Source: an uncultured bacterium (GTDB lineage Bacteria; Cyanobacteriota; Vampirovibrionia; Gastranaerophilales; Gastranaerophilaceae). Taken from it: a stretch of DNA of 58,449 bases. Below are positions 144 through 18,149 of this stretch, in pieces (the first letter of the stretch is position 1; every line of letters starts with the position of its first letter). The translations under genes were made by a program, and so were the position numbers. The DNA is taken from contig CADBQW010000079.1 of NCBI GenBank assembly GCA_902796925.1, positions 1 to 58,449 on the forward strand, in the 5' to 3' direction. The notes beneath the pieces were generated by a model that saw only the letters and a list, made by a program, of their open reading frames with translations, was not told the origin of the DNA and ran no database searches.

Positions 144-170
144 TTAATCTGGATGTTGACAGATCGCTAT
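144..170 (-). repeat. 9-bp tandem repeat across the pilin stop codon
   Basis: On the minus strand the end of the pilin gene reads CCAGATTAA, CCAGATTAT, CCAGACTAG: three near-identical 9-bp units whose first contains the TAA stop. Read-through would add Pro-Asp-Tyr-Pro-Asp and then meet TAG. Seen directly; significance unknown. Confidence 0.5.
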
Positions 171-932
171 GCCATCCCAATATCTTGTACCCACTGTTCC
201 TCCGGCCGCAGTGCATATATCCCTTTCTTCTTGTGTTCCGCCATTAGGGAATGAAACATAATAACCATTCGTATCATCATATCCTAACCCTAGATCCGCT
301 AGACATTCTGTCCATTGAGTATCATACTCATAATCCTGCTTTCTGCTGGTCAAATTTTTACATTCAGAACCCGGTTTTGGAACGAGAGTTGGTGTAACAT
401 CTACAACTATACCGTTCGATTTTACTTGTAGTGCATAAAGGTCTTGAGAAATTTTATTCGGTTTATTTTTTGAAGTTGTGTCAACGATTAATTTTAAACC
501 CTCGTCGCTATTTGCATATCCAAAGGTCATAGCATCACCTGTTGTGAAGGCATAATATACATCTCCCCATGGATTTGGTATTTCATTATAATTAACTGTT
601 TTCATCTTGTTGATTAAGGTGTCATCGTCTAATGTAATACCCTTAAATAATTTCTTTGTTTCTGTTTTATAACAAGCTTTTACATTCTCTTTATTTTTAC
701 AGTTCCATAAATCCGTAAAAGTCATGTTTCCCGGACTATCTACTTCTGCCATAGCAAGTTGGGCGGCTTGAGATAACATTGATACAGCCTTTTTGTACCT
801 TGCCTCATTAACCCTGTTTTGGTTTGCTTTCACTAATGTAGGTAATGTCATTGCTGCAACTGCCCCAACAATCCCCAAGGTTATTAACGTTTCTGCCAAA
901 GTGAAGCCATTGGTTCGCGTTTTGTTTTTCAT
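144..932 (-). CDS. type IV pilin-like / pseudopilin protein
   Basis: Prepilin-like protein of 262 residues. The N-terminus is a class III signal: a short basic leader, Gly9 before Phe10 as the predicted prepilin peptidase site, Glu at mature position 5, then a hydrophobic helix to about residue 32. The rest is a globular, secreted C-terminal domain with about six cysteines that could form disulfides. The role is probably an extracellular pilus or pseudopilus subunit; no partner pilus genes are in the window. The ATG is preceded by a purine-rich AAGGAAGGAAG ribosome site at 941-950. The 5' region is long and carries repeats and a poly-G promoter cassette. The stop codon lies in a short 9-bp tandem repeat. 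Confidence 0.8.
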   Translation of the reverse strand: MKNKTRTNGFTLAETLITLGIVGAVAAMTLPTLVKANQNRVNEARYKKAVSMLSQAAQLAMAEVDSPGNMTFTDLWNCKNKENVKACYKTETKKLFKGITLDDDTLINKMKTVNYNEIPNPWGDVYYAFTTGDAMTFGYANSDEGLKLIVDTTSKNKPNKISQDLYALQVKSNGIVVDVTPTLVPKPGSECKNLTSRKQDYEYDTQWTECLADLGLGYDDTNGYYVSFPNGGTQEERDICTAAGGTVGTRYWDGIAICQHPD

Positions 933-1028
933 AATTATTCTTCCTTCCTTTTGCTAAAGTATTTATTTTATCTTTCTTATGTTTTTGGATTATTGTGGTG
1001 CATATAAACGCATCGTACGGGCTGGCTT

Positions 1029-1062
1029 CTTATTGCCTTATTGCCCCATTGCCTTATAGCCC
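1029..1062. repeat. degenerate TTATTGCC tandem repeat, array 1
   Basis: About four imperfect 8-10 bp units of the form TTATTGCC / CATTGCC / TTATAGCC lie in the 593-bp gap upstream of the pilin gene. A second array with the same unit follows about 40 bp further on. No function is assigned. Confidence 0.6.
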
Positions 1063-1102
1063 TCAATAAAACCCCCGTGGCAAGAAAGGTGACATCCCCT
1101 CT

Positions 1103-1140
1103 CTTATTGCCCTATTGCCTTATGGCCTTATGGCCTTTTA
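1103..1140. repeat. degenerate TTATTGCC tandem repeat, array 2
   Basis: Second array of TTATTGCC / CTATTGCC / TTATGGCC units, about four copies. Together with array 1 it sits in what would be the 5' leader of the pilin transcript. Such arrays can vary in copy number by slippage. Confidence 0.6.
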
Positions 1141-1299
1141 TTAAATTATTCCAATCAATTATCCTGTCATTTTAAAAATCCTCATATATAGTCATTTTAA
1201 CATATTGCATCATGTTATTCAAGTGTATTATACAATTGTAAAAACATTGCATTTTGTGCTTCAAAAACCCAAAAATCCCGGATTCATCGCAAAAACCGT

Positions 1300-1411
1300 C
1301 ATTTTTGTAAACTTTTGTGAAGCTCAATTTTTAGCACTTTGGAATCCTCGAATCCCCCGCCCTGAGCGGGATCTGTTTTCATTATACGTCACCCCCCCCC
1401 CCGCGGGTCAA
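1300..1411 (-). repeat. intergenic poly-G promoter cassette, copy 1
   Basis: First copy of an element also found at 13418-13530. On the minus strand it has TTGACC (1406-1411), an 11-base G run (1392-1402), TATAAT (1381-1386), a small hairpin CCCGC-TCAGG-GCGGG, the string GATTCGAGGATT, and a 24-base block at 1300-1323 identical to the second copy. The element lies between cstA and the pilin gene, pointing at the pilin gene. The last three bases of the block form an ATG that would open a 13-residue peptide ending at 1261. The rest of the 933-1525 gap holds only the two tandem arrays and no convincing gene. Confidence 0.7.
1381..1411 (-). promoter_or_regulatory. promoter with poly-G tract in the spacer (copy 1)
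   Basis: TTGACC and TATAAT hexamers on the minus strand are separated by 19 bp, of which 11 are consecutive G. Gain or loss of one or two G would move the spacer towards or away from the 17-bp optimum. Inferred to drive the downstream pilin gene through a leader of over 400 nt. Confidence 0.55.
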
Positions 1412-1525
1412 CCCTTTTTTAACAAATCGTTACGTTTCTTAACCATTCGTAACCAAATTCTTTTGGAATAAATTCGGATAAAAAAGTAAGAAAAATAGAA
1501 TAGGTAAAGACAGACTTATTATTGT

Positions 1526-13108: not shown

Positions 13109-13420
13109 TTAAGACATATTGAAACCTTTGCCACCATTATCGTAGAATTCTTTAACTCTTTCAAAGCTATCTAAATTATTGTTGTCCCGATAATTTTTAT
13201 TATTTTTTTCGACCATATGCTTTACTACAATACTATCAAGCCCATTTGGACTCGGATTTGGATTTGTAATATCCAACGTATGTGTCATCCAACCGGTGGG
13301 ATTTAACATCGGATTTGTCAGAATAAGACGATTCATATCTTGAGTTGCCTTTTTTCTGCTTGTAGTCAAAGCTTTTCCTAAGATTAAACCACCGACAAGA
13401 CCTCCTGCAACAACTACCAT
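13109..13420 (-). CDS. small hypothetical protein starting in the poly-G cassette
   Basis: Unrecognised protein of 103 residues. A Gly/Val-rich hydrophobic segment at 1-18, possibly a membrane helix, is followed by a polar, Asn-rich tail. Its ATG is the last triplet of the conserved block of the second poly-G cassette, so the cassette supplies promoter and leader directly. There is no clear Shine-Dalgarno. An overlapping 69-codon frame starts 25 bp earlier; I preferred this frame because its hydrophobic N-terminus and composition look more protein-like and a good terminator follows its stop. Real status moderately uncertain. Confidence 0.5.
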   Translation of the reverse strand: MVVVAGGLVGGLILGKALTTSRKKATQDMNRLILTNPMLNPTGWMTHTLDITNPNPSPNGLDSIVVKHMVEKNNKNYRDNNNLDSFERVKEFYDNGGKGFNMS

Positions 13421-13530
13421 TTTTGTAAACTTTTGTGAAGCCCATTTTTCAACTGTCTGAAATCCTCGAATTCCCCACCCTGTGTGGCGGACCTACCTCC
13501 ATTATACGTCACCCCCCCCCTGCGGGTCAA
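13418..13530 (-). repeat. intergenic poly-G promoter cassette, copy 2
   Basis: Second copy of the element at 1300-1411. Minus strand order: TTGACC (13525-13530), a 9-base G run (13512-13520), TATAAT (13501-13506), hairpin CCAC-ACAGG-GTGG, GAATTCGAGGATT, and a 24-base block (13418-13441) identical to copy 1. The hairpin stem differs from copy 1 by a compensated pair (A:T here for G:C there), while CAGG in the loop is kept. Confidence 0.7.
13501..13530 (-). promoter_or_regulatory. promoter with poly-G tract in the spacer (copy 2)
   Basis: TTGACC and TATAAT separated by 18 bp including nine consecutive G. Directed at the 103-residue gene. The tract is two G shorter than copy 1, and the spacer one bp shorter, as expected if tract length changes by slippage. 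Confidence 0.6.
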
Positions 13531-13577
13531 GCATTTATTAAGAAATTGCTACAATTGGAAACAACTGTGCCCGCCAT

Positions 13578-18138: not shown

Positions 18139-18149
18139 CCCCCCCCCCC
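18139..18149. repeat. third poly-C/G tract, 11 bases
   Basis: A run of 11 C on plus, upstream of the EF-hand-like gene. On the minus strand a TTGACA (18180-18185) with a weak ATTAAA 17 bp on lies just before it, which would place the G run near the start of the transcript instead of in the spacer. It lacks the other conserved blocks of the two cassettes. Confidence 0.5.

Follow-up and report, generated by a model that had tools for sequence, protein, structure and literature searches.

A dispersed cassette with a poly-G tract in its promoter-like spacer: a candidate slippage-tuned promoter in an uncultured Gastranaerophilales bacterium

The window analysed here, a stretch of 58,449 nucleotides from an uncultured Gastranaerophilales bacterium, holds two copies of a cassette in which a run of G stands between the hexamers TTGACC and TATAAT. 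Can the length of such a run tune a promoter, and can the tuner be copied from gene to gene? In Neisseria meningitidis the poly-G tract between the −35 and −10 elements of porA controls transcription (PMC2791445, PMC7864442), and Treponema tp0126, with a tract in the same position, is expressed best at 17 bp (PMC7864442). We suggest, with a probability of about 0.6, that the cassette is a porA-like slippage-tuned promoter, which was multiplied as a mobile-promoter-like repeat. Its anatomy suggests that it works like porA, and we do not count it as a proven member of that class. Promoter activity, slippage within the population, switching and active mobility are what we infer from the sequence.

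Parts of the cassette in the window

The cassette at 13418–13553 and its partner at 1300–1433 are both on the minus strand and share one order: TGTARC...TTAATAAA..., TTGACC, CGC[A/G], the G run, TGACG, TATAAT, a short leader that may form a hairpin, and the block GCTTCACAAAAGTTTACAAAAATG. The features are as follows.

13531–13553, minus strand: the element's conserved 5′ terminus, TGTAGCAATTTCTTAATAAATGC in this copy (consensus TGTAACAATTTCTTAATAAAGGC); AT-rich, with a sharp boundary (19-copy alignment)
13525–13530, minus strand: −35-like hexamer TTGACC; together with the −10 hexamer, 11 of 12 consensus matches
13512–13520, minus strand: G9 homopolymer within the 18-bp spacer; 9–18 G in other copies
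13501–13506, minus strand: −10 hexamer TATAAT, invariant where the long-G-run copies reach it
13474–13491, minus strand: possible leader hairpin CCGCC-loop-GGTGG, a wobble form of CCGCC/GGCGG (from the alignment)
13418–13441, minus strand: 24-base block GCTTCACAAAAGTTTACAAAAATG, identical at 1300–1323; it has the ATG of the next ORF at its end
13109–13420, minus strand: 103-aa ORF behind the 13418 cassette, with its ATG at 13418–13420
1300–1433, minus strand: second promoter/leader copy; G11 at 1392–1402, spacer of 19 bp, TTGACC and TATAAT within 1381–1411
963–1299, minus strand: long-form 3′ tail with many GGCAATAA-like units, which are also dispersed on their own
144–932, minus strand: pilin-like gene (NGFTLAETLITLGIVGAVAA) that follows the 1300 copy

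The preliminary description of this DNA had reported two copies sharing TTGACC, runs of 9 and 11 G, spacers of 18 and 19 bp, TATAAT and the 24-base block, and all of these are found at the positions given. Its two targets are also there: the 13418 copy ends at the start codon of a small ORF, of 103 aa, and a pilin-like gene follows the 1300 copy about 370 bp downstream. The hairpin that it listed fares less well. A stem is possible, and the copy on contig C97 has both sides of one stem pair altered (CCGCC/GGCGG to CCACC/GGTGG), but the leader RNA hairpin is no stabler than shuffled sequences (z from 0.28 to −0.86). A search of the leader for a terminator gave none, the window has no match in Rfam, and the upstream TTAAGAAATGTAA-like motif is not more frequent in the window than expected by chance. 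No convincing terminal inverted repeats frame the module, which thus lacks this hallmark of a MITE.

The element reaches about 23 bp upstream of the −35 hexamer, and its long copies run on downstream for several hundred bp. The GGCAATAA-like units of the tail (window 1020–1145) are dispersed separately on contigs C36, C112, C85, C74, C30 and C73 of the source genome (G000), so the long element is composite. The long copies (window 1249–1330; C43, C84 and C60a) also hold a small leader ORF, MTFTKVYKNGGFCDESGIFGF..., of a length that varies among copies; this ORF may encode a leader peptide or be fortuitous.

As for the two downstream genes, the whole protein of the pilin-like gene at 144–932 matches N_methyl with E = 7e-4, which is 1.6 bits under the curated cut-off; the genome search scores it above that cut-off. 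In the relative G009 a homologue of the 103-aa protein is longer at the N terminus by about 28 residues and has an upstream region of its own, so the element apparently took the place of the 5′ part of the 103-aa gene and supplied its ATG. No Shine-Dalgarno sequence is evident close before this ATG.

Copies and G-run lengths across the genome

The genome-wide statistics rest on searches of the source genome (1.57 Mb in 123 contigs). Far from being limited to the two copies first described, the cassette, with 9 or more G in its run, occurs at 17 loci (next best match, E = 4e-48), and two degenerate copies are without a long G run (C97, with a spacer of 9, and C23). Contigs C43 and C115 start inside the 3′ part of the repeat. 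The cassette is repeated far beyond chance. The 17 upstream flanks have no 20-mer in common, hence the copies occupy separate genomic places. The homology sets in abruptly: every copy begins sharply at TGTAACAATTTCTTAATAAAGG (TGTAACAATTT) and continues with the consensus TTGACC-CGC-Gn-TGAC[A/G]-TATAAT and the hairpin leader. Genome-wide, G runs of 8 or longer occur 26 times, versus about 7 expected under a dinucleotide model from the window composition; 16 of the 26 sit in the element, and one more element run lies at the end of contig C62.

In all long-run copies the G run lies inside the −35/−10 spacer, as had been claimed for the two in the window. TTGACC deviates once (TTGCCC). One could consider the element a REP/BIME-like structural or recombination repeat, with TTGACC and TATAAT present by chance and no promoter function. 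Its sharp boundary, its repetitive tail, the many contig ends within it and the antisense copies described below would agree with that. We find this improbable, given the 11 of 12 consensus matches, the invariance of TATAAT, the lack of a terminal inverted repeat around the module and the co-directional bias of the downstream genes.

Ten intact copies stop at contig ends, and about a dozen contigs begin or finish inside the element. In an assembly of 123 contigs this pattern might come from chimeric joins at a collapsed repeat or from poly-G read errors, and two-colour sequencing can create poly-G. Yet in seven poly-G copies the assembly continues into downstream genes (five of these copies lie deep within contigs), the same conserved bases always flank the G run, and the upstream flanks are all different; an artefact of assembly is thus highly improbable.

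The length of the G run is the most variable feature of the element, 9 to 18 G, these numbers being approximate consensus values of a metagenome-assembled genome and the variation being that between copies. The spacers measure 15, 18, 18, 19 (five copies), 20 (five copies), 21, 24 and 24 bp. A few come near the porA-type 17 bp (18 in two copies and 15 in one, the rest 19–24), none has exactly 17, and most, at 19–21 bp, are off the usual optimum, which speaks against the slippage-promoter reading. There are 33 near-identical copy pairs, with no more than 4 substitutions over about 85 aligned positions of the flanks, and in 22 of them the number of G differs. Pairwise divergence is 7–8% in the flanks versus 2.4% in base in the G block, which is strongly variable in length; hence the G run is kept pure. 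The copies that lost the long run (C97 and C23) are also the most degenerate. The genome has MutS1, so there is no general mismatch-repair defect, which also speaks against the slippage-promoter reading; missing mismatch repair was rejected as a cause.

No copy of the element turned up in 98 relatives (two of them of the same genus), in a representative-genome collection or in IMG/VR, collections in which genomes very close to the source may be missing; the sole match among the 98 relatives is a chance 27-nt match in G010. Among the collections searched, it is found only in this Gastranaerophilales genome. The proteins of the window have their best matches in Candidatus Gastranaerophilales. 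The term portable in the preliminary description agrees with the unrelated upstream flanks and the species-specific occurrence. Its phrase “in this lineage” was too wide, as the element was seen in this genome only and the relatives carry poly-G mostly in coding leaders.

In the same-genus genome G001, recJ adjoins der, while here the element comes after recJ; gene order around polA and around the glycosyltransferase gene is likewise interrupted at the element relative to G001. The recJ–der junction is intact in G001, yet synteny there is rearranged too. The breaks would fit insertion, or rearrangement at the repeat, and contig chimerism is a possible explanation of them.

These sites bear on the main rival to the slippage-tuned promoter, namely a mobile-promoter- or MITE-like repeat with a real promoter that is not phase-variable and with a G run that mutates in no regulatory role. 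Such a repeat would be dispersed, species-specific and composite with separately dispersed tail repeats, as the element is; its sites match the synteny breaks versus G001 (recJ|der, polA region|glycosyltransferase), and antisense genes lie behind some copies. We nevertheless regard an idle G run as the less likely reading, since the run is essentially pure in all 17 carriers and is placed exactly where length matters, and since the genome and the family have poly-G at other contingency-type sites.

Downstream genes and the proposed switch

Behind 9 of the 11 copies with a readable 3′ side the downstream gene is co-directional (p = 0.03, one-sided). Pilin-like genes follow copies C79a, C1 and C20 and are found on contig C115; behind C5 a pilin remnant precedes a flippase-like gene. 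An operon of an ECF sigma factor and a zf-HC2 anti-sigma factor lies downstream of C60a, pgk behind C43, a 108-aa ORF behind C23 and the 103-aa gene of the window behind C79b. Antisense genes face two copies: a phage terminase gene (C52, intact copy) and gltX (C97, degenerate copy). The proposal that the promoter is used for surface genes therefore stands for about half of the readable copies, those with pilin-like genes, and does not extend to the sigma/anti-sigma operon, pgk, the antisense terminase or, at the degenerate copy, the antisense gltX. The terminase gene is convergent to its element copy (C52:24144–30000), and a prophage probably adjoins it. This intact antisense copy, like the ten whose downstream side is cut off by contig ends, weighs against the slippage-promoter reading.

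Near-identical sequences thus precede non-homologous genes (pilin-like, ECF sigma, pgk and the 103-aa gene), as in the definition of mobile promoters. That definition, to our knowledge, contains no slippage tract.

We suggest that the cassette would act as a sigma-70-type promoter with a leader, in which a slippage-prone G homopolymer sets the −35/−10 spacing, and that it was copied to about 20 intergenic sites within one genome. When replication adds or drops a G, the spacing would shift around the 17-bp optimum. Each shift would raise, lower or silence transcription of the facing gene, copy by copy, as at porA. A copy placed before an unrelated gene would create a new contingency locus, and pilus-like and other genes would perhaps be turned on and off at random. 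As assembled, most copies, at 19–21 bp, would be silent or weakly active, and the copy at 13418, with 18 bp, would be on or intermediate; these expectations follow the 17-bp rule of porA and tp0126, and the preference of the host sigma factor may differ.

We tentatively go further, at somewhat less than even odds, and propose that the element is a phase-variation module that can be moved between genes: a mobile promoter that carries its own slippage switch and turns any gene it precedes into an independently switching locus. If this is true, one genome would hold about 17 independent tuners, before pilin-like genes, a sigma factor operon and a metabolic gene. Phase-variable promoters have so far been known singly or as sets belonging to a single gene family; a cassette dispersed in this way would illustrate wholesale creation of contingency loci, with the switch copied instead of the gene. 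In the literature searched there was no earlier report of slippage-based phase variation in Gastranaerophilales, and the element would be a first sign of it in these uncultured gut relatives of cyanobacteria.

In Mycoplasma gallisepticum the vlhA/pMGA promoters were multiplied together with one gene family, and the trinucleotide repeat lies upstream of the promoter. They resemble the element in that the promoter is present many times and every copy has a variable repeat to itself, there (GAA)n (reference cited in PMC2791445). With porA the element shares a G homopolymer in the core promoter spacer and the expected effect on the spacing for RNA polymerase (PMC2791445, PMC7864442); however, porA is a single locus, while here the cassette stands about 20 times before unrelated genes and its switching is predicted. 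Treponema pallidum (tp0126, tprE/G/J/L) likewise has several poly-G promoters in one genome (PMC7864442), but these belong to their own genes, and no dispersed cassette is described for them in the work cited. In the gut commensal Bifidobacterium breve pili are controlled by poly-G slippage (PMC9187656). Its tract is intragenic and acts on the reading frame, like the tracts of the Gastranaerophilales relatives and unlike the element. Mobile promoters (Matus-Garcia 2012; van Passel 2014; both cited in PMC8049555) are short dispersed repeats assumed to be promoters; the element differs in its slippage tract, and its own mobility is presumed.

Poly-G tracts elsewhere in the genome and the family

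Runs of at least 9 G occur in 16 of the 18 family genomes searched, some of which have very many. The relatives’ tracts are mostly within coding leaders, often of pilin-like genes. Of 29 tracts from 0.77 Mb of ten relatives, where a few regions were chosen for holding a tract and none for a pilin gene, 8 lie at most 450 nt upstream of a prepilin motif, versus 1% of random positions. The prepilin-associated tracts are mostly just past the start codon, and both in-frame and out-of-frame cases occur. Pilin-like genes with a tract placed between start codon and prepilin motif are seen in G011, G015, G009, G006, G012 and G008 (L206, L207, L217, L240, L244, L236 and L239). This makes translational phase variation of pilin-like genes a candidate mechanism across Gastranaerophilales.

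The source genome has coding tracts as well, in acetyltransferase-like, pilin-like and other genes. Coding-region runs of 8–11 G, in or out of frame, are at C9:918, C14:2549, C51:4086, C65:4768 and C111:1493, and they look like those of classical contingency genes. With poly-G tracts across both the family and this genome, it is plausible that slippage is a general habit of the group and that its promoter-spacer form expanded in this species.

The pattern TTGA-G7-TATAAT is only weakly enriched among other family members, with 23 matches in 14 other genomes versus 14 for the reversed pattern, which counts against the slippage-promoter reading. As to whether other family members share the promoter arrangement, most matches are coding (pilin leaders in genus g14 and the “LIGGEPLLHK” gene in g22 and g7), but a few promoter-like cases are present in genus g41. 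Among them is a near-identical pair in one genome, G289 (C39:12403 and C43:1083; L277 and L289), in which the G run from TTGTTT to TATAAT counts 9 in one and 11 in the other.

Finally, the source genome contains a second poly-G leader family with 8 to 11 G, at 18139–18149 on the minus strand of the window and at C97:6470, C43:88 and C24:4810. Its tract in the window apparently does not lie between −35 and −10 hexamers. This family precedes genes whose products start with MV[DN]K[VI]N, and GTGCAGAAATATTCAAACG...GAACATAGTGTACATAAAAAAA follows.
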